Positions 1-26,720 of a DNA stretch of 27,597 nt are shown here, piece after piece; the stretch's first letter is position 1, and the number at the start of each line of letters is the position of its first letter. The stretch is from the IMG/VR virus record IMGVR_UViG_3300045999_004107, positions 1 to 27,597 of that record. The stretch is one strand, 5' to 3'. The translations under genes were made by a program, and so were the position numbers. Below the pieces are notes generated by a model. It did no database searches. It worked only from the letters and a program-made list of their open reading frames with translations, and had not been told where the DNA came from. This stretch comes from a virus.

Positions 1-186
1 TGCGAGGGGGTCAGGATCGTCAAGAAAAGCCCCCATGCCACTGTGAGTCCAGAGTTTTAACTTCACCGCCAGCCGCAGCGCATCGCCATCGTCTTCAATG
101 GGGTTCCACTGGTTAAACTCAATCCGCATCTTTGCTTCTTCCAGACCATAAGCCTTCGCTGCGAGTTCAAGTAGTTCTCTGTCCAT
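1..186 (-). CDS. Partial phage ABA-sandwich-type protein (N-terminal 62 aa)
   Basis: The ATG at 186 opens a frame that stays open for 62 codons and runs off the left edge, so the C-terminus is missing. The product has a short helical start, then a W-N-P-I-E-D-D-G-D-A-L-R-L-A-V-K-L stretch at about residues 27-43. That W-x-P-x-x-D-x-x-x-A-x-x-L signature is typical of the small phage proteins carrying the 'Phage ABA sandwich' domain, whose function is unknown. GAGGGG, inside the last codons of the preceding gene, serves as ribosome binding site. The start lies one base after that gene's stop, so it is the last gene visible in the leftward early operon. The family call is by eye. Confidence 0.72.
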   Translation of the reverse strand, partial: MDRELLELAAKAYGLEEAKMRIEFNQWNPIEDDGDALRLAVKLKLWTHSGMGAFLDDPDPLA

Positions 187-187
187 A

Positions 188-472
188 TCACATCCCCTCA
201 TCGGCCAGTGCTTCGGCCAAGATTAAAAGAAATAATTGTTTCTGCATAGCAGTTGCGTTCATAGTTTTGTCCCAGCAATAACTAAATTCATTTGACCGTG
301 ATAAGTAATCGTCAATCGCGGCGAGGCCGTAGTGACCTAGTACGTCGTGTAGGTACGCCTTTTTCGCGATGGTCTCTGCGGCTTTGCGTACCTCCGTGCT
401 AATCGGGCCGTACTGATATTCAAGTTGGTCAGGACTCGCCCCACGGGCGGCAGCGTGTAGTAAGCGGCTCAT
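188..472 (-). CDS. Hypothetical phage protein, 94 aa
   Basis: This is a small, predominantly helical soluble protein with no family I recognise. It has an amphipathic segment at about residues 25-58 and a hydrophobic, probably helical C-terminus rich in Leu and Ala (about 77-90). No Cys pairs or catalytic motif stand out. Its ATG overlaps the stop of the 39-aa membrane protein gene upstream (ATGA), and it ends one base before the next gene. That packing is the main evidence that it is real. It is probably an accessory early protein. Confidence 0.7.
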   Translation of the reverse strand: MSRLLHAAARGASPDQLEYQYGPISTEVRKAAETIAKKAYLHDVLGHYGLAAIDDYLSRSNEFSYCWDKTMNATAMQKQLFLLILAEALADEGM

Positions 473-588
473 GTCAAATACCCCGCCATAAAAAATAGTG
501 CCACCAACGCAAGCAGCGCGAGGAAAATGGCAACGGCGGTGTCTAGCCAGCCGTAGGCAAATAAATCTTCAATCTCATCGTCTTTCAT
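469..588 (-). CDS. Small single-span membrane protein, 39 aa
   Basis: This short gene fills the only gap in the overlapping chain. It starts at ATG 588 and shares an ATGA overlap with the gene before it (stop at 585-587). Its TGA at 469-471 makes another ATGA overlap with the start of the 94-aa gene at 472. The product has an acidic N-terminus (M-K-D-D-E-I-E-D) and then a strongly hydrophobic stretch at about residues 17-37, rich in Ala, Leu, Val and Phe, ending G-Y-L-T. An inner-membrane microprotein is the obvious reading. Its role is unknown: a superinfection-exclusion peptide or host-membrane modulator are possibilities only. AGGAGA upstream is a good ribosome binding site. Confidence 0.75.
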   Translation of the reverse strand: MKDDEIEDLFAYGWLDTAVAIFLALLALVALFFMAGYLT

Positions 589-830
589 TTGGCTTCTCCT
601 TTAGCTATTGCTGCAGTGGTGCGGACATCCCAATCCTTGACAAGATTGCGCGAACTTGACGCCCGAATGATCTTGCGCGACTCTTTCAATACCTTTAGCA
701 ACTCCTGATTCGCCTCATGGAGTCGGCGCAGTTCGGCAGCGGCTTCTTCTGTGTCTCGCTGGTGCTTATCACCGGCTGCATATAGGTCAAGTCGGTTAGC
801 CAGCCGCAAGGCTTCTGGTTGTGTTGTCAT
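585..830 (-). CDS. Hypothetical coiled-coil phage protein, 81 aa
   Basis: The frame extends further upstream, but the ATG at 830 is preferred. It overlaps the previous stop as ATGA and is preceded by GAGGGAA, whereas the extension translates to an Arg/His/Cys-rich shadow of the previous gene. The product is charged and helical, with a likely coiled coil at about residues 23-50 (Glu/Leu/Arg heptads around R-D-T-E-E-A-A-A-E-L-R-R-L). Small coiled-coil proteins of this look are common in phage early regions and have no known function. Confidence 0.75.
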   Translation of the reverse strand: MTTQPEALRLANRLDLYAAGDKHQRDTEEAAAELRRLHEANQELLKVLKESRKIIRASSSRNLVKDWDVRTTAAIAKGEAK

Positions 831-1042
831 TTCTGTTCCCTCGCTTTCAACATGGCATCTGCCATTTCGTAGGCAATTGCTGCGACTGTCCCGGTGGTGT
901 TGCCCTGCCATGACGGGTCAACTAAAAGAGCCCCCATCGCTTTGCCAGCAAAGTAATCGCGCAGGGTCATGCCTTTGTCGTTCCAAAGATTACCTGCACC
1001 GCCCTCATTGGGAAACGCTGGGCCTCCTGTGCTTGTTGTCAT
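827..1042 (-). CDS. Conserved phage protein of the MTLRDYFAGKAM type, 71 aa
   Basis: The sequence has the layout of a very common phage/prophage small protein: a Gly/Asn/Pro-rich start ending in G-P-A-F-P-N, then M-T-L-R-D-Y-F-A-G-K-A-M (residues 25-36), a variable middle, and an A-Y-E-M-A-D-A-M-L-K-A-R-E helix at the C-terminus. The biochemical role of this family is not established to my knowledge. It is joined by four-base ATGA overlaps to both neighbours, so its translation is probably coupled to theirs. Confidence 0.85.
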   Translation of the reverse strand: MTTSTGGPAFPNEGGAGNLWNDKGMTLRDYFAGKAMGALLVDPSWQGNTTGTVAAIAYEMADAMLKAREQK

Positions 1043-1320
1043 GTCAACTCCTTTAGTTGTGCTTGCAACCGTATATGAAAGCTATCCTCGCCATCGTCAC
1101 CAGACAGCAGCCAGTCAATGCGCTGTGCATAAACGTAAGCCAGCTTTAGTGCCTTTACAGCCTTCTCAAATTCAACGATGGTTTCTGAGGTGTAGTGCCA
1201 ACCAATGTCTGAGCCCCATTCATCCTTTTCAGTGCTGTCGTTATTCAGGATGGCAGAGCCAATGCTATCTGCTATGTCCAGCATAACGTGTTGCTTGTAG
1301 TCAAAGTGTCCGCCGCTCAT
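1039..1320 (-). CDS. Conserved phage protein of the MSGGHFDYKQ type, 93 aa
   Basis: The N-terminus M-S-G-G-H-F-D-Y-K-Q is a hallmark of a widespread phage protein family of unknown function. An A-D-S/E-I segment and a C-terminal A-x-x-x-x-R-I-D-W-L-L-S-G-D-D-G-E-D-x-F region also fit. An in-frame ATG lies two codons upstream at 1326. I chose the ATG at 1320 because it overlaps the preceding stop as ATGA, the rule in this operon, and because GAGGGAG then sits at a proper distance. Confidence 0.85.
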   Translation of the reverse strand: MSGGHFDYKQHVMLDIADSIGSAILNNDSTEKDEWGSDIGWHYTSETIVEFEKAVKALKLAYVYAQRIDWLLSGDDGEDSFHIRLQAQLKELT

Positions 1321-9742: not shown

Positions 9743-11293
9743 TTAGGGGGAGTACCCGGTGTACTCCTTCATTTTTTGCTTGTAATACTCCGGGTCATCT
9801 CGATAAGCTTGGGCAGCAGTCGCGCCCAAAGACAGCGGGATTCCAACCAGCGCAGCAGGGGGGAACATTGACAAGGCACCGCCAAGGGCGCTTGTCCCTT
9901 TCAGCGCCATTTTGGTCAGATCACGCTGGTCTGCTGGCTTGTCGTACTCGTGCACTATGTCGGCAAGGTCTAGCCCGGCTGAAAGTCCGGCAGCGGGAGG
10001 CAGCGCGTACTTGCCAACCGTGCCTACTGCCGATACAACTGGGCGCATCATCCCTTTGAACATGTTCGTCACGGTATCAAGGCCGGACATTACCCGTGCG
10101 CCCATGCCGGGAGGCGGCGGGGTTGTTGGTATTGGTGGGGGCTTGGGTAGCTGCACCAAGGATCCGGCAGGGGGTGGTGCCGCAGGGCCGGCCATGTGGC
10201 CCGGGGGCAGCTCTGACGGGCCTTGATACACATAGCTGGCCCGGGGGCCACCACCAACGCCTTGGTCAGGCGTCAACAGGCCACCGAACCTTGGGTTTTC
10301 AACATAATTGTTGCCGCCCATGCGTTGAACGTTTCTCATTGCCTCACGACGTTTTTCTGCAAGGTCCCAAGCGCCTCCCTCTTGCTTGGTGTTTGACAAG
10401 GCTTGGCCAGCTTCAATGTCCGTCAAGCCAAGTGCTTTGGCCGTGTTATATGGGATTACACCAGTCTGCCCCTTGGCCATTCGGCCAGCGTCGGCGGGCC
10501 CCATGGGAGTTGGCAAACCGCCGGCGGCAGGTGTACCGGGTTGGCGAATGACGCCCTGTCCCGGGACTCCCTGCACTCCCGGGGATCCCGGGGGGATAGC
10601 GGGAGGTGGCACCCCCATGGAGCGTTGCGCCAAAATGCGAGCGCGTTCTTCCGCACCTGCGCGGTTGGCAAGGGTAGACGTTCTCTGAGTGTCATAGGCG
10701 CTTTTGCCGGTGGCCAAGGCACCAGTAGCAGCACCGGCTCCGCCAAACAGGAATCGTTCAGCAGGGTCTGCGCTGGATGTGTCTGCTGCTGGCGGGGGCG
10801 CGGGCGGCGGCGCATCACCTAGAACCAAGTCGCTTTCGCCTCGTTGTGCTGGTTTTGGCTCCGTGTCAAACGTGCCGTAACCATTGAGAGCCCTAACATA
10901 GTCAAACACGCGAGGGTCTGGATCTTTGCCAAGTTTCAATGCATCAACCGCCCCGGGGCCGCCGTTGTAGTAGATTGCAGCAAGCGTAGGGTCGTTCTCA
11001 GATGCTTGCAAACCAAGTTTCAAATATTCAATCCCGGCCTTGATGTTTTGGTTTGGGATTGACAGCTTTTCCTCGTCGTACCCCATTCCCTTGCCGGTGC
11101 TTGGCATCACTTGCATCATGCCAATTTCACCGCTGGCTCCACGCGGTGCGTTGGTCCGCAGTCCGCCCTCTTTGAACGCAATGGCAACCGCCAACACCGG
11201 GTCAACCCCGGCATTTCTGGCCATTTGAGCAACCTTTACTGCGTTGTCAGATTGCTCTTGATCAAGGCTGCCAATAAACTTTAATTTGTCCAT
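9743..11293 (-). CDS. Virion-associated lytic transglycosylase fused to a Pro/Gly-rich internal protein, 516 aa
   Basis: Residues about 15-135 form an SLT-type lytic transglycosylase domain: V-A-I-A-F-K-E42-G-G-L (catalytic Glu), G-A-S-G-E-I-G-M-M-Q-V-M-P-S-T, N-I-K-A-G-I-E-Y-L and A-A-I-Y-Y-N-G-G. This enzyme cuts peptidoglycan glycan strands. The remainder is Pro/Ala/Gly-rich (P-P-P-A-P-P-P around 164), with a short collagen-like G-x-x run near residue 235 and a hydrophobic Ala/Gly-rich C-terminus. A virion-carried wall-degrading protein that opens a channel at DNA entry is the natural reading. Start ATG 11293 has AAGGTG upstream. It is the last late gene before the terminator. Confidence 0.88.
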   Translation of the reverse strand: MDKLKFIGSLDQEQSDNAVKVAQMARNAGVDPVLAVAIAFKEGGLRTNAPRGASGEIGMMQVMPSTGKGMGYDEEKLSIPNQNIKAGIEYLKLGLQASENDPTLAAIYYNGGPGAVDALKLGKDPDPRVFDYVRALNGYGTFDTEPKPAQRGESDLVLGDAPPPAPPPAADTSSADPAERFLFGGAGAATGALATGKSAYDTQRTSTLANRAGAEERARILAQRSMGVPPPAIPPGSPGVQGVPGQGVIRQPGTPAAGGLPTPMGPADAGRMAKGQTGVIPYNTAKALGLTDIEAGQALSNTKQEGGAWDLAEKRREAMRNVQRMGGNNYVENPRFGGLLTPDQGVGGGPRASYVYQGPSELPPGHMAGPAAPPPAGSLVQLPKPPPIPTTPPPPGMGARVMSGLDTVTNMFKGMMRPVVSAVGTVGKYALPPAAGLSAGLDLADIVHEYDKPADQRDLTKMALKGTSALGGALSMFPPAALVGIPLSLGATAAQAYRDDPEYYKQKMKEYTGYSP

Positions 11294-14071: not shown

Positions 14072-17000
14072 TTATCTCCTAACTTTGCGTTTTTTAAGGT
14101 AATCCAACGGGGACTTCTTAGCCGGGGGCGGTAAGTCTTTTGGTTTGGCCGACCTGTGATACGCCCGAATGGAGTGCATCATGTCGTAGAGTTTATCTGA
14201 ACCGGCCTTGGTTGAGCCATTTCCAAGAGCCGCTACCACGTCCGCTGGGAAAACAAACTCCCCGTCAGCTAACATTGCCGGGATGTCGTCGGACTGGCCA
14301 TCGCCCGGTCCCGTCACGGCATTGCCGGTGCGGAAGTCCAGTCTAGCCTTGCCGGAGTGCTCTATGACCCCTAGGCCGCCTCCGGCGTACTTGCCGTGCC
14401 GGGTAGTACCACCACCGGCAAATAATGGCGTAGCGAGCCCTCCAGCCTTTGAATACAGCGTCTTCTCGCCGGGTTTCTCCGGCAAGTCAATGTCGTTTTG
14501 CGGGCCATAGGTGAAGTAGTTGGAGCCGGGCTCCTCTGAAGCGGAGAGTTCATCTTGCATTTGGGCTGCCTGTTGATTTTGTTGAATTTCTTGCAAATTT
14601 CCTGAATAAGAACCAAGAGCAACCATTTTTAAGTATTTTGCAAGAGGCCCTTCAAATTCTGCAAATCCGCTTGTTTTGAGACCAATGTCAGCAAAACCGG
14701 GCTTGTAAGGGTCCGACGATTCGCTAGATGTTGCAGTTTTTTGTGCTACTTGAGTTGCTTTAGGGGCGGGTGTTGGAACAGGTGTTGGCTTCGGTGTAGG
14801 AGTCGGCGTAGGTGTTGGTGTTGGTGTTGGTGTTGGGGTAACAGTCGGAGTTACTGTTGGGGTAACAACTTCTGTCGGGGTAACGGTAGGAGTTGTAATA
14901 ACCGTGGGGGTCGGAGTTACTGTTGGGGTAACAACTTCTGTCGGAGTTGTTGGCGTGGGTGTCGGGGTCGGAGTTGGAGTGACTGTTGGAGTGACAACTT
15001 CTGTCGGAGTTGTTGGTGTTGGAGTCGGAGTAGGAGTAACCGTTGGGGTTGTAGGAGTAACTGTTGGGGTTGTAGGAGTAACTGTCGGAGTAGGAGTAAC
15101 TGTCGGAGTAGGAGTAACTGTCGGAGTAGGAGTAACTGTTGGGGTAGGAGTAACTGTTGGGGTAGGAGTAACTGTTGGGGTAGGAGTAACTGTAGGGGTA
15201 GGAGTAACTGTAGGGGTGACAGTCGGCGTGACTGTCGGAGTAGTAGTTTCTGTTGGTGTCGGCGTAGGCGTAGGTGTTGGCGTAGGTGTAGGGGTAACCG
15301 TTGGAGTGGGGGTTACTGTTGGGGCAACTGTAGGAGTAACTGTCTCTGTTGGTGTCGGCGTAGGTGTAGGGGTCGGTGTAGGCGTGGGTGTCGGTGTGGG
15401 GGTCGGGGTCGGAGTTACTGTTGGAGTCGGAGTTGGAGTCGGAGTTGGAGTCGGGGTTGGGGTTGGGGTTGGGGTTGGGGTAGGTGTTACGTCAACCGTC
15501 GGTGTCAGGTCAATTGTTGGGGTTGGTGTAGGAGTTGGGGTCGGAGTCAGGTCAACCGTCGGAGTCGGGATGACCGTGGGTGTAGGTGTTAGGTCAACTG
15601 TCGGGGTTGGCGTGACTATGTTTTTCGAGGCGTCATAGGCATCCAGATTGCCATTGAACATGGTGTACGTTGCGTAATCTGGGAAGCCAGCGGCGGTTGC
15701 AGTCTGCTGGTTTGTTGCCGCAGTTTTTGCTGTTGAATAATCGCCATAATTTCCGTTGTACTGCAAAAATGTTGCGTAGTCCGGGAAGCCTGCTATTGTG
15801 GCCATCCGGATGTTTGCAGCATCATTGTTCATTTGTTCGTACGCGGCTACATTCCCGTTAAATTGGATGTAGCTTGCGTAGTCAGGAAAGCCGGCCGTCT
15901 GAGCCGTCTGCAAATTGGCGGCGGCTGTCTTGGCCGCGTTGTATGCGCCGATGTCTCCGTTGTACTGGGTGTAAGTGGAAACATCAGGGAACCCCGCATC
16001 GGTTGCCAGTTTGATGTTGGGGTCTGCCGCCAGCATGTCTGTCGGAACGCTTTGCACAATCTTGGTTGCGAGGCTGACTGCGGCGTCGTCCGACATGCTG
16101 GTCAGGCCAAGGTCTCTCATCATTTCTTGCGCATCGGCGGCGCTTATTGGCTGGCCTGACTCAAACGCAGACATGCCCTGCAAGAAGTTGTCTAGCTTTG
16201 TTTGCGCGTCAGCCTCACTAATCTGGCCTGTGAGGCTGTTTAGAACCTCTTGGGTTGGATTGGCGTAGCCAAGATTTTGAGCGATCTGGAGGGCTTCTGC
16301 GTTGTCTGTTAATAGCGGATCTACAAATGATGCTGGCAAAAAATCATCATAAAATGATGGATCAATTTTTACGTAATCATTGTTTACAACCGCATCGCCA
16401 AAAGTTACGTTTTCTCCGGAAGAATCAACCCCAAGCACGGCGTTGGCTTTTAATGTAGACAGGTCTGCTGTTTTTGCGCCAGATAAAAATTCACCGAGAG
16501 AGACATCATTCCCCGAGTAATCTTTGGCCACGGATACAGTGTCATTGATTGCAGCCGGCGTTATTGCGCCAGTTGCTACCCCCGCGCCAATTGATGCAGA
16601 AGCCCAGCCAGCCGCTACTGCTGACTTCAAATCATTTTCTGTAATTTTGCCCTTTACCGTAAACGTGGTGGCAAGAGTTTGAGGAACTGTTTCAATAAAT
16701 TCCGAAGCTGCATTTACACCAATGGTTGATCCATATTTTGCAGCGGTTTCTTTTAACCCACCTTTAAGGCCATCAAAGTAATGCTTAAAAATCATTTTGT
16801 CAGCAAAATACTCCGCTGGTATTGTGACCGCCGCATGAATTGAGCCGTTAATTAATGCTTTATCTCTAGCAACATCGTCCGGGACTCCTGCTTGTTTTAA
16901 TAAATCGTAGGCCTCTTTTCCACCAGCGCCAAAAGACTCCCAGCCATCAAGGACAGCGGATACGGCAGCAGCCCCAGCTAAAGTTACTGCGGCTGGAGCA

Positions 17001-19834
17001 CTAAATGCTAATGCCGTGCCGCCGGCTATTGCACCAACCAGCCAAGGCAGACCTTCTTGGACACCCTCTTTTCCTATTTCGGAAATGAACCCTAATGGGT
17101 TATCTCTGATGGCCTTAACAATTGCACCGGGCTGATCAAAATATGATAAATTACCAGCGTCTTTCCATTGTTTATTTAAATTGGCTTCTTGTATGGCAAC
17201 ATCTGAACCAGTTGCATCTTTACCATATTGAACTAAATACTTTCCAAGATTTGATACTGAATTTTGAAAACTTGTGCCAGATGCTAATGAAACACCCGCT
17301 GCGTATGTTTCCATTTGCTGACCAAGTGCCGATGCTCCAGTTGCAATTAACTGATCAAGAATTGTTTGAGCCGGGGCTGCTAATTTAATTTTGCCAGCAA
17401 CGTCACCTGCTACGTCATAGCCAGAGTACCTTACGTTGCCAGTGTAAAAATTATCAAGGGCACGGCTTGGATCGTTATAGGCAACTGCTTGTGTACGCGC
17501 ATTTTGCTCATCCGCAGTTATTGTTGTGAGCGTGCTTCCTTTGTAATCAAAAGTTTGATTGGTGCCAAACAGTGAACGAGCAACTTTAAATGCCGCATTT
17601 TGATTGGGGGCATCGTTAATAAGCGCTTGAAAAACATCTTTTTCAGTGGGCCCATCACCCGTCATGCTATAGACGCTGTTGTCGTAGTCAAATTGCGTGT
17701 AGCCAGCAAGACGTGCGGCATTGGCTGCATCTTGTTTGGTGTTGTAGTCCCCGCCATCAAATACCAGTTGTTTGGCAACTAAAGAATCAATTTCTGCATC
17801 TGTTAATTTAAGTGCGGAACCACTACCGTCTTTAAGTTGCGTAGCTTGATTAGTGGTTATATTTGTGCCGCCACCTGCATCAACAGGAGTAGGCGTTACC
17901 ACAGTCCCGGTGCTACCGTCCACTGCACCGCCTACAGTTGGCGTTACGTAACTTGTTCCGGTGCTGCCGTCTGCCGCGCCCCCTTGGGTAGGGGTAACAT
18001 AAGTTGTTCCTGTACTGCCGTCTGCGGCCCCGCCTATGGTAGGCGTTACGTTTGTGCCACTTAAAGGAGGAAGCGCAGTCCCAGTTACATTTGATCCTGT
18101 AACTGGAGTAGTTTCTGTTAAGCCGGCGCGTTGCAGGTTACCAACAACATCTATGTTTGGTTCTGTTTGCCTTACTGTTTTGGCAAATGAGTCAATTTCG
18201 CTTTGCTCTACGCTCGGCCCAAACGCGGTTTGCCAGAAATCTAATGCGGCCGGATCTGGCTCCCTGCCAACAATATCCCGATAGAGCTGTGCAACAGCAC
18301 CTTGCGCGGCGGGGGGATTTGCCGAGGTTTGAACTACATCAAGGGCGCGACTTGGGTCCCTGTAGGCGTCGGCGATCGCTTTTACGTCTGGGGTCAAACC
18401 CGTTGCAGTGTCAATAAAATTGGCAGCAGCTTTTTTGCCTTCTGCAAGCGCGGCATTCAGAGCTGCATTGGTAATGTCTCTGCCCGTTAACGCTGCTGAA
18501 ATCGAGGCTCTGGCTACGTTTTGGGCTGCTGGCGGTAGTTGGCTAAAGCCCGGCATAGCATTGGTAATGCCACTTATTGCTGTTCCGATCGCAGCGCCAG
18601 CCAATGCATTTAGGGGATTTTGACCAGTTAACCCCGAGCTTACAACATTGGTGACGCCTTGCGTTATTCCTGATTTGACAAAAGCTGGAAGGTCAACACC
18701 TTGTAACGCACTGTTTACAGCGCCAGATACGTTAGACCCTACAAAGTTTAAACCGGCAGACAGCACAGCGCCTTTTATGGCTTCGCCTACATCCCCGCCG
18801 TTGGTGGCGGTTTGAATAATAATATTGCCAGCAAGCGTTGCAGCGGTGGCGTTAGTGATCCCCAATGCAGTGCCAATCGTATATCCGGGGGCGGCAAGTA
18901 ACCCTGAGACGGTAAAACCTGACGCAGCAGCACCAGTAGTAGCCGCCAGAGTAGTACCCACCCCACCCGCTGCCGCTGCACCAGCATTTAACAGCCAAGG
19001 TATGCCGTAGTACGCAGCGGAGGCGACTAAAGCTACTTTGGCAACATCTTCCAGTGAATCAAGAAATTGCTCCCCCATAGTTGAGGGATTTTTGGGGATG
19101 TAATAACCTGTTGTATTCCCAGTAGGATCAAATAATGACCCAAGTTCTGGGCTGTGTTTAACTGCAAAACCGATGACGTTAGATGTGTCTTGTACCTCAG
19201 TGTTGTCGTCTCGCCCACCAAGTTTTGTCCCGTACCGTATGTCTACACTGCCAACAGGCACCCCAAGCGAGGCCGCAATTTGTGCTTGGATACTTTGTGT
19301 GGTGGCAGCGGGAGCAGTAGTAGGAGCAGTAGTAGGAGTAGGGGTAGGGGTAGGGGTCGGGGTAGGGGTAGGAGTAGGGGTAGGAGTAGGGGTAGGAGTA
19401 GGGGTAGGAGTAGGGGTAGGAGTAGGGGTAGGGGTCGGAGTTGGGGTAGGAGTTGGTGCAGGATTAGCATTGGTATATTCTTCACCCGCTATGTTCCTAA
19501 AGGCTTTTAATTCATCTGCACTAACATTTGAACCAAATTGTTGGGTAAAGTATGCCAATCCACCGGGGTCAGGCTCTCTTTTAAGCTCCTCTATGTACAT
19601 CCGCCGAATTGCTTCATTTGCTGCATTGGTATATTCTTCACCCGCCATGTTCCTAAAGGCGTTTAGTTCATCTGAACTAACATCTGTACCAAATTGTTGG
19701 GCAAAGTACGCCAATCCACCGGGATCAGGCTCTCTTCCAAGCTCCTCTATGTACATCCGCCGAATTGCCTCCTCTGCTTCGTTCGCACGATAGGTATATC
19801 CCAAAGCTTTGCGACGGTACTCCAAAATATTCAT
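14072..19834 (-). CDS. Giant virion protein with DUF4214 copies, Pro-Thr tracts and repeats, 1920 aa
   Basis: ATG 19834 is preferred because M-N-I-L-E-Y-R-R follows, while the upstream extension is basic noise. In order it has two tandem DUF4214-like units (about 20-115; R-R-M-Y-I-E-E-L-x-R-E-P-D-P-G-G-L), a Pro-Thr tract (about 125-173), a hydrophobic Ala/Gly region, a third DUF4214-like unit (about 514-560; [10 protein letters not shown]), three 17-aa G-G-A-x-D-G-S-T-G-T repeats, and a hydrophobic segment (about 920-970). Four 34-aa F-P-D-Y repeats (about 1275-1408), a 280-aa Pro-Thr tract and a C-terminal domain follow, the last with [20 protein letters not shown]. That C-terminal motif recurs in phage virion proteins. 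It is probably an ejected or internal structural protein. Exact function is unknown. Confidence 0.85.
14765..15612. repeat. Long Pro-Thr-coding tandem repeat tract in the giant gene
   Basis: About 850 bp consist almost entirely of 6-bp units coding Pro-Thr (leftward CC-N AC-N), with interspersed Val, Glu and Asp. Between about 15036 and 15220 the period is 18 bp, giving repeated P-T-V-T-P-T. The plus strand is nearly all G, T and A. Tracts like this can lengthen or shorten by replication slippage in multiples of three bases, changing spacer length without breaking the frame. Confidence 0.92.
15610..15991 (-). repeat. Four 34-aa F-P-D-Y/V repeats in the giant gene
   Basis: Units of 102 bp each encode F-P-D-Y/V-x-x-Y/F-x-x-Y/F-N-G-N/D, followed by an Ala/Thr/Gln-rich helical spacer ending A-G. 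Four copies run in tandem just before the long Pro-Thr tract. They are diverged at the DNA level but keep F-P-D and N-G-N/D, so the protein unit is under selection. I know no function for it. Confidence 0.88.
17885..18060 (-). repeat. Three 17-aa repeats (G-G-A-x-D-G-S-T-G-T) in the giant gene
   Basis: Units of about 51 bp encode V-T-P-T-x-G-G-A-A/V-D-G-S-T-G-T in tandem, read leftward. They lie between the third DUF4214-like unit and the large hydrophobic region and look like an extended, flexible linker. Confidence 0.8.
19317..19460. repeat. N-terminal Pro-Thr tract with a G-quadruplex-like core
   Basis: Hexamers GTAGGG/GTAGGA on the plus strand encode about 48 residues of Pro-Thr leftward. 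At 19341-19368 five runs of GGGG are separated by two-base loops (TA, TA, TC, TA), which meets the intramolecular G-quadruplex pattern. The G-rich strand is the template for the leftward gene. Confidence 0.9.
19467..19778 (-). repeat. 156-bp tandem duplication encoding two DUF4214-like units
   Basis: The block at 19467-19622 is repeated at 19623-19778 with about 14 mismatches (about 91 % identity by eye). It encodes the 52-aa unit containing [10 protein letters not shown] and [11 protein letters not shown] twice in frame. The high DNA identity suggests a recent duplication, or one kept similar by gene conversion. Confidence 0.9.
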
Positions 19835-19850
19835 AAATCGCCAAACCCGT

Positions 19851-20111
19851 TCATGTTGTTTGCGTTGCTGGGTTGACCGCCGCCACCATGGCCTCGGCCC
19901 AATCAAACCAATTGTCGTACTGATCCGTGCGGGGCGTGGCCTCGTTTGCAAAAACGTCAATTGCGTTCAGGCCATTGCCCCACAGCCTCCAGTCCGTCTG
20001 GCCATCGGGAATCTGAAGATTCTGGGCCCCGTACAGCTCGCACATGAGGCTTGCCCACGACTCAAACGTGCTGTAGCGGGGGTCGTAGATCAGCGCAGGG
20101 TTAAGGGCCAT
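19851..20111 (-). CDS. Small conserved virion-region protein, 86 aa
   Basis: GAGG sits ahead of ATG 20111, and the gene overlaps the end of the hub-protein gene by 11 bases. The product has [18 protein letters not shown], then C-E-L-Y-G-A-Q-N-L and [14 protein letters not shown], and finally [11 protein letters not shown]. It is rich in aromatic residues and looks well folded. I have seen this layout near podovirus tail genes, but its function is unknown. A minor structural protein or assembly factor is likely, given its place between the hub protein and the giant protein. Confidence 0.8.
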
Positions 20112-23100
20112 ATGGCCTCACGTCGCCGATCTCGGCACTGAGCAAGACTTTGCCAAGCTGGTAATTTCCGCCGGCCACGTTAGATGTGAATTTAAGACGC
20201 AACTCCCGGCGTTGTTCGCGCATGTCAATTTTTCCGTTGTTGGGTCCAAAAACGTATGGGTCGGACTCCTTGTCCTCGCCCTGCGCAAATGGCCGTCCGG
20301 TCACAATGACCGACATTTCACCAGATTGGATGAAATCCGGTTCAATCCGATCAAGTCGGATCCAGCGGTTTACGCCTTCTGTGGCCAACTGGGACGGGCC
20401 GCCAGAGACCCAACCAAGGTCGTTGGTCTCAAACGAGCTGAGGATGGACTGCACGTTCTGGCCATCAACTTCGTCGGTGCCAATTTCGTGTTGGTACATG
20501 GCAATCAGGTCAGGCGGGGTTGAAAAAGTCAATTCCTCCGAAGCAGTGCTTGTAGCCGCCGCTGACATTTGAATGGCTTGAAGATAAATTGCCGTGACCG
20601 AGATGGCAAACCCAGCCCCCGCGCCGCCCAAACTAGCCGCCGTGGCGCTCAACACGTTGCCGATGACATAACTCGCCCCTCTGGACGTAAGGGTTACGGT
20701 GGTCACTACCCCCCCGGCAACGACGATTGTGGCCTTAGCGCCCAGTCCTGACCCTCCTGTGAGGGTTACGTTGGTGTAGGTTGCATTGACGTAGCCAGCG
20801 CCCGGGGTGATTGCCCCAAGCGCCTTGATGTTGCTGGTCGTAATGGCCACCACGGTCGTACTTGTGGGAATATTGGTGCCAGCAATAACCTGATTGAGCG
20901 CAACCTGCAAGTTGTAGGTGTCGCTGTACAAGAAAACGCTACCAGACACCTCGTTGAAAGTGTCTGTAAACACAAGCTCAGACTCGCTGGCATGCCAGTC
21001 AGCGGCCACGGGAAAGGCGAACACTTGCGAAAAGTACCCGGCAGAGCGCTGGGCACCTCGGGCCTCGCCGGCATCGTACCAAGTGTTCTCGCGCACGTTG
21101 TAGATAACGGCGTCAGTACACTCGGTTGCCTCACCACGCGGATAAAACCACCAGATCTCACCAAAACGAGGAACCTTTGTTGCCCAAACTTTCTGACGCT
21201 GGTCGTAGTTCAGATTGTCAAAGAAGTAGTTCTGGTTCATGCTGTTGGGGATCTCCTTGACCACCCCGTTGTACAGCAGGAAGCGGTCAACGCCGCACCA
21301 GTAATAAACGCCGTCGTACTCAATGGCCGACTGAGAAGACAGGATGGAGGACTGGCTGCTGATGATGTCGTAGCGCCAGTACTGAGCAGGCGTCCCTGTC
21401 CCGCCAATGAATGACACGCGGATGAGGCTGTCAAGGCTCCAGAACAGGCCAGAGGGCGCGTTTGAGCCGCCCCTGACGGGTAGCCCTTGGACAATCTTGC
21501 CAGAGGCTACGTTGACCGCATTAGCGTCGGCAGAGACCCAGTCGCTAGGGTTGCCGGCCGAGCAGTTCTGAATCAGCCCGTTGTTACCATACACGAACAG
21601 GTAAGGGTGCAGGGAGACAACACCGCCAGACACTTCAATGTTGTTGTCAAAAGTCAAAGTTACCGGGCCGCTTGATGTGGCCGCAGCGGACAACACAACT
21701 TTTTGATAGGAACCAAGCGTAAAAACAAACCCAGTTGTTGGCGCAACAATTGTGGATACCGCGCCTCCACCAGAAGTTGCAGACAACGTAAATGTTGTTG
21801 AATAGTTCGTGGCAATAACGTAGTAAGTGCTTCCAGCAGAAAGACCAATGTATCTTTGTATAGTAAACACCAAATTGTTAGTGCTGGTTACTATTGTTGT
21901 AATCGCTGATCCACCAGAGGTAGCAGACAAAGTAAATGTTGACGTGCCATTGGTTGCAATAATGAAGTACGTTGTCCCGGTTATAACTCCCGGGAATGGT
22001 GTTGTAACAAATGTCAATCCAGTAGTTGCACCAAAGGTGTTTGTTATTGAAGATCCACCAGAAGTGGCAGCCAAAGAAAAGGTTGTTGTGCCGTTCGTGG
22101 CGGAAATGTAATAAGTTGCTCCTGAAACAAGTCCTGTTCCATTTGGCCCAGTGAACGTCAGTCCCGCCAAGGTGACAATATTTGTTGCTATTGCCTCCCC
22201 ATTTATTGAAGACGCCAACGTAAATGTTGATGTCCCGTTGGTTGCAATAATGTAATAAGTGATGCCTGCTGTGACACCGCTTGACAATATTGCCGTAAAT
22301 GTTAGCCCAGTGGTTGTGCCTGCCGTTGTTGTCAAGGCTGTGCCGAACAACGCCGCTGACAACGTAAATGTTGATGTCCCATCGGTGGCAATAATGAAAT
22401 AAAACCTGTTGCCATTGATACCAGTTGACGTTCCAGTAAGCGTGCCAGAAACAAAAACTGGCTGGCCAATGTACAGGCCAGTTGTAGCTGTGCAGGAGCA
22501 CTGACCCGCAGTTCCAGTAACGGCAACACCAGCAACTGTTGATGGAGTAGGTGTGCCGCCCACGGTAATTGGCTGGCCTATGTAGAGTCCAGTTGTTGCG
22601 GTGCAAGAAAAAGCGCCATTTACGCTTGTGATTGCAACACCTGCAAGTGTGTTTGTGCTTATTGATCCAGAAACAACTACCGGCTGACCTACCGCAAGGC
22701 CAGTTGTAGCTGTGCAAGAAAAAGCACCGCTTGAGCTTGTGATTGCAACACTCGCCAAGGTGGTGTTAAGCAGCGCCCCGGACACGACAACTTCCTGACC
22801 GTTGTACAAGCCATTGGTTGCGGCGCAAGAAAATGTACCGCCCGTCCCAGTTACCGCAACCGTGGACAAAATTTCTTTTGGCAGCGACCCTGAAACAGTA
22901 ACTGTTTGGTTAATGTAAAGGCCTGAGGTTGACGCACAAGAAAAAGTTCCGCTTGTTCCCGTCACTGCGACCGTGCTTAAATTGGGCGACTCAAGATTGC
23001 TTGAAACAACTGTTGTTCCGGAAGGTATGTTTGTGCCGGTAACAGTCTGGCCAGCGCCAATCAAGGTGTTTGTTTCAGATATGGTGACGGATGTTGTGCT

Positions 23101-23601
23101 GTTTATGTAGGCGTTGGCATCAGTAAAAATTCCAATTCTGGACATGGTCGTGCTATTGATATCGCCAATCAGCACAGGCGTATCAACGTCATTGCTGATT
23201 GAGTCAAGGTTCAGACCGGGGTGGGCCACAAGCGACTGAATGCCATTTCCACCAACGTCATAAAACCCATCAAATTGCCACAAGTTCAAATTTGAAGCCG
23301 TAAAGTTGGCCAACGTAAAATCTACAGCCCCAGCGCCAATACCGTTGTTGTCAATGGTCAGGACTTGCAAGCCGTCGTTGTAGCCGCTAAAAATTGAGGT
23401 AAAGCCGTTCTGCGGGTTTACCCAAATCCCACGAGAGGGGCCTGTGAGTTGATTTGAAATGACGCGGAATCCGCCAATCTTGCGGGGACGGCCGCGTTGA
23501 AAACGCACCCACTCGCCATCGGTGTAAAAAACTTTGTCAAAGACCGTGCCGTCGCGTTGAATGCCCGGCTTTGTGTCAAGGGTAAAAACCTTGGTTGCCA
23601 T
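20101..23601 (-). CDS. P22 gp10-like tail hub/DNA-stabilisation protein with inserted repeat modules, 1166 aa
   Basis: The N-terminus (T-L-D-T-K-P-G-I-Q-R-D-G-T, W-V-R-F-Q-R-G-R-P-R-K-I-G-G-F) and the region about 655-880 (W-S-L-D-S-L-I-R-V-S-F, Y-Y-W-C-G-V-D-R-F-L-L-Y-N-G) resemble the packaged-DNA-stabilisation/hub proteins of podoviruses (P22 gp10 type). These form part of the tail channel. Residues about 208-630 are an insertion of five 37-aa units (F-S-C-x-x-T-x-G-L-Y-x-G-Q) and five ~48-aa units (Y-Y-I-I-A-T-N-G-T-S-T-F-T-L). A third Gly-rich module sits at about 928-1004 (G-A-G-Y-V-N-A-T-Y-T-N-V). It is far longer than typical relatives because of these insertions. GGAG precedes the ATG; the gene overlaps the fibre gene's stop by one base. 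Confidence 0.82.
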   Translation of the reverse strand: MATKVFTLDTKPGIQRDGTVFDKVFYTDGEWVRFQRGRPRKIGGFRVISNQLTGPSRGIWVNPQNGFTSIFSGYNDGLQVLTIDNNGIGAGAVDFTLANFTASNLNLWQFDGFYDVGGNGIQSLVAHPGLNLDSISNDVDTPVLIGDINSTTMSRIGIFTDANAYINSTTSVTISETNTLIGAGQTVTGTNIPSGTTVVSSNLESPNLSTVAVTGTSGTFSCASTSGLYINQTVTVSGSLPKEILSTVAVTGTGGTFSCAATNGLYNGQEVVVSGALLNTTLASVAITSSSGAFSCTATTGLAVGQPVVVSGSISTNTLAGVAITSVNGAFSCTATTGLYIGQPITVGGTPTPSTVAGVAVTGTAGQCSCTATTGLYIGQPVFVSGTLTGTSTGINGNRFYFIIATDGTSTFTLSAALFGTALTTTAGTTTGLTFTAILSSGVTAGITYYIIATNGTSTFTLASSINGEAIATNIVTLAGLTFTGPNGTGLVSGATYYISATNGTTTFSLAATSGGSSITNTFGATTGLTFVTTPFPGVITGTTYFIIATNGTSTFTLSATSGGSAITTIVTSTNNLVFTIQRYIGLSAGSTYYVIATNYSTTFTLSATSGGGAVSTIVAPTTGFVFTLGSYQKVVLSAAATSSGPVTLTFDNNIEVSGGVVSLHPYLFVYGNNGLIQNCSAGNPSDWVSADANAVNVASGKIVQGLPVRGGSNAPSGLFWSLDSLIRVSFIGGTGTPAQYWRYDIISSQSSILSSQSAIEYDGVYYWCGVDRFLLYNGVVKEIPNSMNQNYFFDNLNYDQRQKVWATKVPRFGEIWWFYPRGEATECTDAVIYNVRENTWYDAGEARGAQRSAGYFSQVFAFPVAADWHASESELVFTDTFNEVSGSVFLYSDTYNLQVALNQVIAGTNIPTSTTVVAITTSNIKALGAITPGAGYVNATYTNVTLTGGSGLGAKATIVVAGGVVTTVTLTSRGASYVIGNVLSATAASLGGAGAGFAISVTAIYLQAIQMSAAATSTASEELTFSTPPDLIAMYQHEIGTDEVDGQNVQSILSSFETNDLGWVSGGPSQLATEGVNRWIRLDRIEPDFIQSGEMSVIVTGRPFAQGEDKESDPYVFGPNNGKIDMREQRRELRLKFTSNVAGGNYQLGKVLLSAEIGDVRPYGP
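21715..22990 (-). repeat. Ten tandem beta-module repeats in the hub gene
   Basis: Five A units (V-A-I/V-T-x-x-x-G-x-F-S-C-x-x-T-x-G-L-Y) are followed by five B units (G-x-T-Y-Y-I-I-A-T-N-G-T-S-T-F-T-L-S-A). A units are about 37 aa, B units about 48 aa, and all are read leftward. They are diverged but clearly homologous; the B units keep A-T-N/D-x-T/S-T-F. One A and one B unit also occur in the next gene, at about 24670-24935. Confidence 0.9.
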
Positions 23602-25097
23602 CAGAAAACTCCGCCCTGAACACCCCCAGTAAAGTTGCCGGTGCCGGGAATATTCAGCCCTGTAGCCGTTAAACCAAACAGCTTGACGCCCAAGATTGCA
23701 ATACCAAACTCACCAGAGCCGGGCCGGTAGATGCCCGTTGAGGTCTCTGAAGAAAAGTTTAGCCCCGGAGCGCCCACCGAGCCGTCCACCAAAGACACAC
23801 TTGACGCACCGGCGGCGATCGTTGAGGCGTTGAGCAAGTTAATTGAGTCGCACAGCAAAATTACCTGCTGGCTGGCGGGGATTACCGCCGTGGACCCGCC
23901 GCCGCCTGTGGTGAAGGTAATTTGATAGCCGGGGCCTCCGCCATTGGTCTGGTTTGTGATGTAGTACACCTGAACGGTTTGGGGCAAAACCACAGTCACG
24001 TTGCCTGTCAGGGTGCCGGTGTACTTTTGAATTGTGTTGGCGGCCTCGGCTGCTGTTAGGGTGTAGCTGCCAGACACCACAGCTTTGGTGAGCTGGGTAA
24101 AATTAAACTGAACATTACGGCCCAAACCAACTGTGAAGAAGGCTACGCCAGAACAGCAAAGCACGCAAGAGTCAGCAGGTTGCAATGCAATAGTTGCAGC
24201 GCCGTTTATCAGAATACCGCCAGATGGAGCAATGGTCAACGTGCCAGTTCCACCATTGCGGACCATCATGTACCAGTCATTTCCCAGTGTGACGGCTGAT
24301 GTCAAAGTTAGGGAACCCGCGCCGCCGGTCCAAACGTAGGTTGATGCACGGTCTGTGGCCACCGCAGTGTAGTTTGACGCAAAGGTGTTAACCTCATTGG
24401 CAGCGTTCAAGGTGTTGGAGATGGCCTTCAGACCAAATCCAGCAAGGGTGGCTGCATCAACATTGGATGTGCCCACGCCAAAGGCAATCAGGCCCCATGT
24501 GCCGGCCTCAGTGGCGTTGTCGGTCAGGTAGATGTACTTGGCCTCGCCTGCCGCAATGGTGACGATTGTGGCCCCGTCGTAGTCCCTGACATCAAAGCTG
24601 TAGGAGCCAACATTGCGGAACAAGGCGTCAATGCCAACAGACGCCTGATTTGCAGGCGGCATGTCTAAGGTGAACGAGTCAAGCGTAAAAGTCAGGCCGG
24701 TAGTTGTGCCGGCCGTAGTGGCCACCGCCAATCCGCCTAAAGTAGCCGACAGGGTGAAGGTTGTCGTGCCATTGGTAAGAATGATGTAGTAGGTGGTGCC
24801 GCTGACAAGGCCTGTTGCTGTGCCAGTAAGAACCCCAGTGACAACAACGGCTTGGCCAACAAACAGGCTGGGAGTTGTGGTGCAAGAGCACTCCCCGCCC
24901 GTGCCCGTAACAATGACGCTAGCAAGCACTAGGCCGCTGGAGAGCGACGTGACATCCATGATCCGCGCTGCGGCGTTGTCCGTGACGCTGCCGTTGATTG
25001 GCCACGACAGGGTGCTGTCTGCGGAAAGCGTAATGTCTCGGTAAGAAACGTCGGTCGGCTGGATTACTTGGCCGGTAAATGGCGAATTAAAACTCAT
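23601..25097 (-). CDS. Tail-fibre-like virion protein with an inserted A+B module, 498 aa
   Basis: The N-terminus (Q-P-T-D-V-S-Y-R-D-I-T-L-S-A-D-S-T-L-S-W-P) and the long Thr/Gly/Val beta-rich body fit a fibre or tail-associated structural protein. The C-terminus (S-T-G-I-Y-R-P-G-S-G-E-F-G-I-A-I-L-G) is typical of fibre/appendage proteins. Residues about 55-143 are an insertion with the same two module types as in the hub gene; T-L-D-S-F-T-L-D-M marks the duplicated edge. A Cys pair (C-V-L-C-C) lies in the mid-region. It starts in a TAATG overlap with the adaptor gene's stop. Receptor binding is plausible but not shown. Confidence 0.78.
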   Translation of the reverse strand: MSFNSPFTGQVIQPTDVSYRDITLSADSTLSWPINGSVTDNAAARIMDVTSLSSGLVLASVIVTGTGGECSCTTTPSLFVGQAVVVTGVLTGTATGLVSGTTYYIILTNGTTTFTLSATLGGLAVATTAGTTTGLTFTLDSFTLDMPPANQASVGIDALFRNVGSYSFDVRDYDGATIVTIAAGEAKYIYLTDNATEAGTWGLIAFGVGTSNVDAATLAGFGLKAISNTLNAANEVNTFASNYTAVATDRASTYVWTGGAGSLTLTSAVTLGNDWYMMVRNGGTGTLTIAPSGGILINGAATIALQPADSCVLCCSGVAFFTVGLGRNVQFNFTQLTKAVVSGSYTLTAAEAANTIQKYTGTLTGNVTVVLPQTVQVYYITNQTNGGGPGYQITFTTGGGGSTAVIPASQQVILLCDSINLLNASTIAAGASSVSLVDGSVGAPGLNFSSETSTGIYRPGSGEFGIAILGVKLFGLTATGLNIPGTGNFTGGVQGGVF

Positions 25098-25732
25098 TAT
25101 GAATCCCTCACAATTGCCTGACGATCAGCGGCACGGATGACGTTCTCCGTCTTCAGGACTTCAATGATTTTGTCGTAATTGCTTTGCCACATAGGCATGC
25201 GCTCGTCATTCTTGAGGAACGGCATGGCTTGCAGCAAAGTGCCATACAGCAGCGCCTGTGGGGCGTACTGGGTAAACCAGCTTGATTGGTTTGATGAGTC
25301 CAAGGGTTGCACGCGCTCGTAATACAGAACCTCGTATGAGTAAGCCAGTGTTGGAGTGGGACCTACCAACCAGTGCTCGTAGTCGTAGTCGCAAAAATAC
25401 AGCGGAACGTCAGTGCTGGCCGCTTCTGGCCAATACTCTCGAATGTACTCGTAGGTGCGGAGCAGCACAGGTTTGCGCTTGCCTGCTACGGTAACGTTCA
25501 TTGAAACAGTCTTGCGCCAGCGTGCCGGCTTGGGAATTACGTTCTCGGACGCAACCATAGTGCTTGTGGCCACAGTCAGGTTGCCAAGAAATTTGATCTC
25601 AGCCGCAATTATCTGCTCTGCCAGCATGATGAACTGCGGAATTTTGTCTAAAGTCTGGGCATCTGTGCGTTCCAGATAGGTCTGGATGTCATTGACCAAA
25701 CTGTCATACGTCATGGTTGCGGCGACCGTCAT
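25097..25732 (-). CDS. Phage SU10-type adaptor (head-tail connector) protein, 211 aa
   Basis: The sequence has the layout of podovirus adaptor proteins: helical Y-D-S-L-V-N-D-I-Q-T-Y-L-E-R-T-D at the start, P-Q-F-I-M-L-A-E-Q-I-I-A-A-E-I-K-F-L-G in the next helix, a beta region with P-A-R-W-R-K-T-V-S-M, and R-T-Y-E-Y-I-R-E-Y-W-P. Y-S-Y-E-V-L-Y-Y-E-R-V then leads to the final helix with Q-A-L-L-Y-G-T-L-L-Q-A. Such adaptors form the ring under the portal. GGAG precedes ATG 25732. Length is normal for the family. It is the strongest evidence that this phage is podovirus-like. Confidence 0.82.
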   Translation of the reverse strand: MTVAATMTYDSLVNDIQTYLERTDAQTLDKIPQFIMLAEQIIAAEIKFLGNLTVATSTMVASENVIPKPARWRKTVSMNVTVAGKRKPVLLRTYEYIREYWPEAASTDVPLYFCDYDYEHWLVGPTPTLAYSYEVLYYERVQPLDSSNQSSWFTQYAPQALLYGTLLQAMPFLKNDERMPMWQSNYDKIIEVLKTENVIRAADRQAIVRDS

Positions 25733-25761: not shown

Positions 25762-26238
25762 CTAAGACAGAAACAGGGCGCGTTCGTCATTGCGGCGTTT
25801 GACTAGCCCCGGAAGGATTTTACCCCCGCCCCGTGTAAACTTCAAGAACTCGTCTGCCGCCGCTTCAATCTCACCCCGAAGAACCTTCTGACGGAGGGTT
25901 GATCGCTGTACGCCGCCCAAACCGAGATTAAAAGCAAAGCTGACAAGAGCGTCGTTTTGACCTTGGGTAAGCACCACAGGAAAAAGTTTGGCGACCCCAA
26001 CCTCAAATCGGCGGAGATCAGCACTAAGGATTCCATCTACTTCGGCTCCTGAAAATACGCGGTTATCTTCCGCTTTAAGCGGGTAAGCGTCTCTCTGATC
26101 CAGAGGTAAACGACCTTGATCGGGGTATAAAACATGACCAACTCCTACAGTCCAAAGACGCGCTGGGCAACGGTAAGGTTTAAACCGCACACCCTCGTGA
26201 TGTTTGATCATCTCCATGCATCGCGCAGAGACTTTCAT
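25762..26238 (-). CDS. GH24 endolysin (phage lysozyme), 158 aa
   Basis: This enzyme cleaves peptidoglycan glycan bonds at the end of infection. The active-site region is H-H-E15-G-V-R-F-K-P-Y-R-C24-P-A-R-L-W-T30-V-G-V-G-H. It has the GH24 spacing E-x8-C-x5-T, with Cys replacing the Asp of T4 lysozyme, a variant common in phage endolysins. Further family features are T-Q-G-Q-N-D-A-L-V-S-F-A-F-N-L-G, G-G-G-K-I-L-P-G-L-V-K-R-R and E-R-A-L-F. No signal or SAR segment is visible, so export should depend on the holin encoded just upstream (ATGA overlap). Confidence 0.94.
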   Translation of the reverse strand: MKVSARCMEMIKHHEGVRFKPYRCPARLWTVGVGHVLYPDQGRLPLDQRDAYPLKAEDNRVFSGAEVDGILSADLRRFEVGVAKLFPVVLTQGQNDALVSFAFNLGLGGVQRSTLRQKVLRGEIEAAADEFLKFTRGGGKILPGLVKRRNDERALFLS

Positions 26239-26720
26239 TTCTTGCTGAACGCTTGGCTTCCAAACCAGAAAGAAATGACGCTGGCCCAGATGATCTGAGT
26301 TTCGTCATCCCAGATGTTGTCCAGCATGATCTGGAAATCTACACCGTGCTGCCAAGCGTAGACAAACCCAGCAACGTCAACAAACACCAGCAACAGGAAC
26401 AGGCCATAGGTGATAAGGGGACGAACACCAGCACGGAGATTCACCATCCACTGGCTTGCACCTTGACCAATAGCTATGTCGTGAGCGTACAGGGCGCTGC
26501 GCTCTGCTGATGCGGCCTCAATCATCTGGCCCTCTACCCTGATCTCTTCCACCCGTTGCTGGGCTTCAAAACCTGCCTTGCGAAGTTCCAGTTCCCGCTC
26601 AGTCTGGAGGCGAGCCATTGCCATCTCGTGGCTTTTGTCCGCACGGTCTTGAAAGAAACCCAACAGCTTGGGTAAACCACCGGCAAGAAAGCTGACCAGT
26701 GTAGTAATCAGAGTAATCAT
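26235..26720 (-). CDS. Three-transmembrane holin (GTA-type), 161 aa
   Basis: The layout is an N-terminal hydrophobic helix (I-T-L-I-T-T-L-V-S-F-L-A-G-G-L-P-K-L-L), a Glu/Arg/Ala coiled coil (about 25-85), then R-P-L-I-T-Y-G-L-F-L-L-L-V-F-V-D-V-A-G-F-V-Y-A-W (second TM, about 100-125). A third hydrophobic segment ends the protein (I-I-W-A-S-V-I-S-F-W-F-G). The W-M-V-N-L-R-A-G-V-R-P-L-I-T-Y-G motif fits the 3-TM holin family used by gene transfer agents and many phages. It overlaps the endolysin start by ATGA, as expected for a lysis pair, and would form the membrane holes that release the endolysin. Confidence 0.82.
   Translation of the reverse strand: MITLITTLVSFLAGGLPKLLGFFQDRADKSHEMAMARLQTERELELRKAGFEAQQRVEEIRVEGQMIEAASAERSALYAHDIAIGQGASQWMVNLRAGVRPLITYGLFLLLVFVDVAGFVYAWQHGVDFQIMLDNIWDDETQIIWASVISFWFGSQAFSKK

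Follow-up and report, generated by a model that had tools for sequence, protein, structure and literature searches.

A podovirus nozzle arm best read as one FCCH-like domain recursively inserted into itself

The window analysed was an entire record, a linear IMG/VR virus contig of 27,597 bases. One of its proteins is a podovirus nozzle, and it quite probably carries an arm based on a small host module (H), in which one domain resembling the FCCH domain, made of the halves A and B, is nested five levels deep. As part of the same explanation, the number of levels would change by whole A+B pairs, and H together with its arm would be exchanged among phages as a cassette.

To begin with, the open reading frame (ORF) at 20101..23601 (minus strand, 1166 aa), the hub or 'stabilization' protein, was assigned as a nozzle from its matches to solved nozzles and to phrog_3287, and from its position adjoining an SU10-type adaptor gene. 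The solved nozzles matched by phmmer were 9nwi (4e-8) and 8zkm/8zkk (6e-8 and 8e-8), and a profile search of the hub against 9nwi, 8zkk and 8zkm with hmmsearch gave 8e-9. Moreover, a full-length AlphaFold2 (AF2) model built from 73 homologues (pLDDT 78, mostly 72–95 in the arm) was aligned by VIA to the Pa223 nozzle 9nwi_Y over 441 residues in the model range 2..1163 (Z 20.4), followed by 8zkk (Z 19.7) and 7z4b (Z 18.0), with 437–450 residues in the range 2..1164. Given both the sequence matches and the whole-chain alignment of the model, the hub was taken as a nozzle of the propeller kind that bears sizeable additional segments. It is a nozzle of the P22 gp10 / T7 gp12 / SU10 gp17 / Pa223 type, with a platform and a seven-bladed propeller (blade count taken from DSSP), the propeller being interrupted by two H modules.

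The tail module was identified by the SU10-type adaptor protein (25097..25732, minus strand; PF24175 SU10_adaptor, E 3.5e-22), which is followed by a tail-fibre-like protein (ORF 23601-25097) and then by the nozzle ORF downstream. Elsewhere on the minus strand, a 1962-aa ORF at 14072-19960 with DUF4214 matches, long Thr-Pro repeats and a weak tape-measure match probably encodes an ejection or internal virion protein, and the SLT transglycosylase domain protein encoded at 9743-11293 resembles internal virion proteins that are ejected and carry lytic domains. Furthermore, a phage lysozyme gene (PF00959) and that of a phrog_6637 protein, overlapping by a few bases at 25762-26720, are likely a lysis pair. 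No near relatives among annotated phages were found by DNA search. A nozzle 81% identical was present in a 27-kb contig (L434, CAMDXR010000008.1) within a metagenome-assembled genome of Limnohabitans sp. Rim8, which is a weak hint of a freshwater Burkholderiales host, or else phage DNA that was binned there.

The host module H is about 75 aa long and appears in two copies in the hub, each split after its strand 3 (TTVV). In particular, the motifs GTNIP, TTVV, SAAATS and LTF start at aa 189, 196, 638 and 649 in copy 1 and at aa 908, 915, 1013 and 1024 in copy 2. An earlier note on this DNA had proposed two copies of a host module split at one equivalent place, and both points were borne out, as the copies were homologous in a profile-profile comparison (hhalign, E 1e-17, probability 98.9%, 35% identity) and the break fell in the loop between strands 3 and 4 in both. 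For copy 1, the N-terminal half (strands 1-3, ending TTVVSS) lies at 22990..23130 on the minus strand, as delimited by intact H in homologues and by the match to 8eci_1, and the C-terminal half (strands 4-5: KVVLSAAATSSGPVTLTF) at 21640..21705 on the same strand, as delimited by homologues, the alignment to copy 2, the AF2 model of H+AB and the 8eci_1 match. The interval between them holds exactly the five A and five B repeats that had been described (22980-22420 and 22419-21706, respectively). For copy 2, also on the minus strand, the halves lie at 20830..20979 (N-terminal, from the hhalign match to copy 1 at E 1e-17) and 20521..20583 (C-terminal, QAIQMSAAATSTASEELTF, from the alignment to copy 1). 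They flank the Gly-rich module G (GAGYVN...), reported before and placed here at about 20584..20829 (minus strand) from the site-2 states in homologues and a match to phrog_438 (baseplate wedge). The span originally given, 20590-23050, covered most of this arrangement, but the complete H-to-H span is about 20521-23130.

The modules were also correctly taken as inserted, because homologues with an uninterrupted host exist for both sites. At site 1, H was uninterrupted in 112 distinct nozzle ORFs, and at site 2 four states were found: empty (GB2A, MW202545), H alone (L013), G alone (37 homologues) and H split by G (120). Split H (model 1..164) matched a continuous domain, residues 8-89 of Bridgette 8eci_1 (Z 9.9, 31% identity, VIA-align), which together with the AF2 model of H+AB favours the view that the two halves of H may form one domain around the insert. 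Matches of H to the designed propellers Tako8/Ika4 were discarded, being a short match of the strand that follows the insert. Two types of H/AB junction were observed in arms with a single AB level (n=1), namely VGLVSTTLTLAG (L027, L181, L220) and TNL-RVPVLNAV, and they may mark separate insertion histories.

Regarding the repeats themselves, A and B had been considered separate surface modules; instead, each is half of a single barrel of about 85 aa that resembles the FCCH domain of E1 enzymes. The N-terminal halves A1-A5 (22420..22980, minus strand; repeat analysis and AF2 strands) have a period of 37 aa, with lengths of 37, 37, 37, 37 and 39 aa, and the C-terminal halves B1-B5 (21706..22419, minus strand; repeat analysis and mirror-ordered signatures) have a period of 48 aa, with lengths of 48, 48, 48, 48 and 46 aa. 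An AF2 model of H+AB from 53 sequences reached a pLDDT of 93.8 and a pTM of 0.84. In this model, strands 41-57 and 129-141 each crossed the H/AB border unbroken, so that a two-stranded ribbon appears to connect H with AB. The AB unit (model 48-135) matched continuous domains by VIA-align, namely FCCH domains of E1 and phage tail-tube proteins, with Z of 5.5-7.0 over 73-78 residues, a Z of about 7 being middling by the tool's scale. The best FCCH match was 7sol (Z 7.0, rmsd 2.4, 74 residues), 2v31 gave Z 5.5, and the E-values of AB against FCCH by Foldseek were 0.29-0.63. A Pfam search with 53 members (E up to 1) gave no match of AB to a curated FCCH family, and no Pfam family was found to match AB or H. 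Homology between H and AB in sequence was also considered and rejected, as the alignment of TTVV with YYII was suggestive, yet its probability was 5% and not significant.

Complete AB units were found singly in the n=1 hubs and in the adjacent tail protein, and also as an ABAB tandem. In the window, a single uninterrupted AB lies near the N-terminus of the tail-fibre-like protein (24672..24929, minus strand), as located by a comparison of gaps among homologues: 26 of them had an 88-residue gap containing AB at this site, while in 197 the gap was 1-4 residues long and lacked AB. The same AB domain is therefore an independent insertion in this neighbouring gene. Nested or tandem AB was also seen in L423:69-4382, L420:2859-5651, L430, L449 and L471, where the proteins had matches to the tail sheath, to head closure Hc3 and to further families of nozzles.

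Among the alternatives, the one that survives best is that H provides one privileged, tolerant 'socket' that repeatedly gains surface modules, putatively altering host interactions. This was still considered unlikely. It agrees with the strand 3/4 loop being shared by AB in copy 1 and G in copy 2 across many lineages, and to that extent the single socket of the earlier note stands. However, H was split after strand 4 (VMSNNATAST / NPVTVTF) in a sister nozzle clade (L396, L407, L412), with the arm in the strand 4/5 loop, and G and H each occurred alone at site 2. Nor is the socket the only one, since in the recursion the insert enters AB at its own A|B loop, and the AB of the tail protein sits at an unrelated site. 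Overall, the propensity for insertion seems to be a property of AB no less than of H.

The state of the arm changed at least 27 times on the nozzle-core tree by parsimony; when only strongly supported branches were counted, n=3 and n=5 still required five or more changes apiece. Moreover, cores with 96% amino-acid identity carried unlike arms (L004, n=5, vs. L018, n=1; L051, n=1, vs. L021, n=3). The DNA of L004 and L015 was ~97-98% identical over the downstream core, but 64-65% over the N-terminal half of H and 55-72% over the repeats. At equal core identity, the DNA identity of H was 65%/64% in the 11 pairs with different arm states vs. 76%/79% in the 63 pairs with the same state. Since H diverges together with the arm in the different-state pairs, H and arm behave as an exchanged cassette, which also counts against the socket. 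A recent insertion in place was thus rejected for the near-identical pairs, in which H differs as well and exchange fits better; the claim that the modules had been gained in place gave way to a cassette that looks exchanged and not recently inserted. The assignment of L081 to n=1 by gap length was an artefact from a G module elsewhere and was dropped.

The length of the segment between the same two core positions was quantised, with values of 59-63 aa (H intact), 149-152 aa (AB), 320-325 aa (AAABBB) and 490-493 aa (AAAAABBBBB). A total of 72 distinct hub arms had n=1, 22 had n=3 and 19 had n=5, the number of A being equal to that of B in every one. Only n=0, 1, 3 and 5 were found among hub arms, whereas a step-by-step nesting predicts n=2 and n=4 too. 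As these two occur in other proteins (AABB and AAAABBBB), a law of odd level numbers was dropped, and the gaps in the hub clade may be a chance of history. Short sequence marks further distinguished the repeats: QCSC in A and TTAGTT in B characterized an uninterrupted AB (inner marks), while Q[TS] in A and N[YF] in B characterized repeats adjacent to the host (outer marks). In n=1 arms, both A and B bore inner and outer marks, the inner one coming first in A, and the AB of the tail protein had neither of the host-adjacent marks.

It could also be argued that the modules form an integral part of the nozzle, the short homologues having arisen by deletion from an ancestor whose arm had five levels. 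In favour of this, the identities of core and arm were correlated within arm states (r 0.57-0.74), which indicates that arms are partly inherited with the core. However, H, AB and G are all absent from the 511-aa nozzle of Caulobacter phage GB2A and from the solved nozzles of 512-521 aa, and the order of the marks in n=1 arms is unlike that of a simple A1/A5 fusion. A deletion origin was thus regarded as improbable.

Slightly less credit still was given to A and B being two independent tandem arrays, solenoid-like or of small domains, that expanded side by side with no recursion. In the window protein, all A are adjacent and all B are adjacent, which permits such a block-wise reading, and covariation does not single out the mirror pairs. 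In particular, the covariation and mirror-tree tests of pairing were weak (the mirror order was the best of 6 for n=3 and ranked 26 of 120 for n=5), as were the tests of A/B pairing by within-protein distances, and when the middle repeats of n=3 arms were compared with those of n=5 arms for orthology, the result was symmetric and uninformative. On the other hand, independent arrays sit badly with the equal numbers of A and B in every hub arm and with the lone AB being modelled as one barrel with high confidence, and under them strings that are branched yet balanced, such as AABABB or AAAAAABBBBBABB, would be meaningless. A divergent nozzle clade (L396, L400, L407, L412) had 7-8 AB units arranged as AAAAAABBBBBABB and AAAAAAABBBBBBABB, and the other proteins reached by the arm search had AABB, AABABB, AABABBAB, AABABABBAB and AAAABBBB. 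Each of the 157 complete ORFs in which both A and B occurred gave a balanced-bracket string; in total there were ten different strings, for which the chance of all being balanced with numbers fixed and order random is ~1.6e-7 (product of 1/(n+1)). When these profiles were then applied to 43 additional ORFs, 38 were balanced and the other five had a lone B or extra partial matches; ABABB appeared in two of these later ORFs, one of which was inspected.

The signatures were, in turn, ordered as a mirror. QCSC was found mainly in A_n (19/22 arms with n=3 and 18/19 with n=5) and TTAGTT only in B_1 (18/22 and 19/19, respectively), while Q[TS] was found in A_1 (22/22 and 19/19) and N[YF] in B_n (17/22 and 14/19), both being rare elsewhere. 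Moreover, AG[TSA] was present in 137 of 143 B repeats coming right after an A and in none of the 128 coming after a B (p 6e-71); in the divergent proteins, including AB pairs in the middle of a string, the figures were 39/45 and 2/87 (p 1e-24). As judged from these sequences, such an order would be expected if the closed domain at the centre of the nest were A_n-B_1 and the one on its outside A_1-B_n. With A and B as halves of one domain, the nesting inside H becomes a recursion of five levels, and the best reading of AAAAABBBBB is A(A(A(A(AB)B)B)B)B, a single domain recursively self-inserted. An assembly artefact that collapsed or expanded repeats is hardly credible, for although the close relatives all come from metagenomic contigs and repeats are easily misassembled, the repeat copies within a protein differ by ~38-54% on average and the same arms, with position-specific sequences, recur in many independent metagenomes.

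According to the recursive reading, the small beta module H would sit between two propeller blades of the nozzle, and an FCCH-like AB would be inserted in its strand 3/4 loop. This AB would itself be split between its strands 2 and 3, the next AB filling the split, up to five levels in all: H(A(A(A(A(AB)B)B)B)B)H. In this scheme, the A strands would run outwards and the B strands would return, each barrel thus being completed by A_i and B_(6-i), with the putative pairs A5-B1, A4-B2, A3-B3, A2-B4 and A1-B5. If these pairs are in physical contact and the domains stack linearly, each subunit would carry six domains, H and five AB, stacked into a linear arm. Gain or loss of levels would involve entire A+B pairs, and phages with nearly identical cores would swap H and arm together, giving 0, 1, 3 or 5 levels. 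Growth in place, by AB going into AB, is suggested by the inner signature, no recent event having been seen. Taken together, we find it rather more plausible than otherwise that an FCCH-like barrel has nested in itself to seven levels with branching, and that phages swap whole cassettes of it, providing near-identical nozzles with an evolvable, length-tunable arm.

As to function, SU10 gp17 (7z47, 7z4b, 7z4f) belongs to the same propeller/platform nozzle family as the hub, and there too extra beta domains are inserted into the propeller. These are four Ig-like 'nozzle domains' between blades 2 and 3, whose L-shaped arrangement straightens on infection and so lengthens the tail by 277 A, and a fibre-dock loop is located at blade 1, near the C-terminus (PMC9509320). 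The SU10 sequence showed no A/B repeats, and an Ig-like fold was not among the listed structure matches of AB and H, although either could be Ig-like. The whole-length alignment with SU10 gp17 was set aside, as only a region of ~95 columns aligned, and weakly (probability 16%, E 0.0017). By strand order in the AF2 model, the hub arm leaves the propeller after two blades, and site 2 and the SU10 fibre dock lie at about the same place (24 and 30 residues past a shared, weakly aligned anchor). On these two positions, and by analogy, we propose that site 2 may be a fibre-dock decoration and give about even chances to the arm being the counterpart of the SU10 nozzle domains, that is, a tail-tip nozzle or extension that would position fibres at the cell surface, the number of levels setting its reach.

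The natural series of levels (0, 1, 3 and 5, with depth 6-7 in the sister clade) occurs in homologous genes, some with cores ~96% identical, which allows the origin of nested domains and the effect of arm length to be studied. It also opens a question of folding, as the halves of a domain can be hundreds of residues apart. Furthermore, the balanced-bracket rule is a means to find and annotate such proteins, which by eye resemble two tandem arrays. To our knowledge, a domain inserted recursively into itself is a great rarity, and no report of FCCH-like domains self-nested in phage proteins, or of recursive self-nesting in them, was found in the open-access literature.

Compared with known systems, AB aligns over its whole length with the FCCH domain of the E1 ubiquitin-activating enzyme as one continuous domain, and it also matches FCCH-like domains in phages, namely the tail-tube proteins of T1 (9l0f) and FCWL1 (9jlf) and the phi92 endosialidase (4hiz). 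It differs from these systems in having no significant sequence match to them and no ubiquitin-related context, and no self-insertion was seen within the aligned ranges of the matched domains. Similarly, the H-like domain in the virion protein of Arthrobacter phage Bridgette (8eci chain 1) is uninterrupted. The closest parallel is Si3 of the cyanobacterial RNA polymerase beta' subunit (rpoC2), where SBHM/HABAS domains are recursively nested (PMC13114784, PMC10802570), reportedly to six levels (PMC13114784). In both cases one small beta domain, recursively self-inserted, forms a long arm on a larger protein, with discontinuous domains made from distant segments. However, the fold, the protein and the biology are different: Si3 is fixed in a cellular enzyme, whereas the hub arm is FCCH-like, present in virions and polymorphic (0, 1, 3 or 5 levels) among near-identical genes, and the nesting of AB reaches up to seven levels in the sister clade and extends to several virion proteins. 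Recursive nesting itself was thus already known from Si3, the deepest case found described; what is new is the branching, the natural series of levels in near-identical genes and a depth of seven (AAAAAAABBBBBBABB), which, as read from the repeat strings, would exceed the six levels of Si3.
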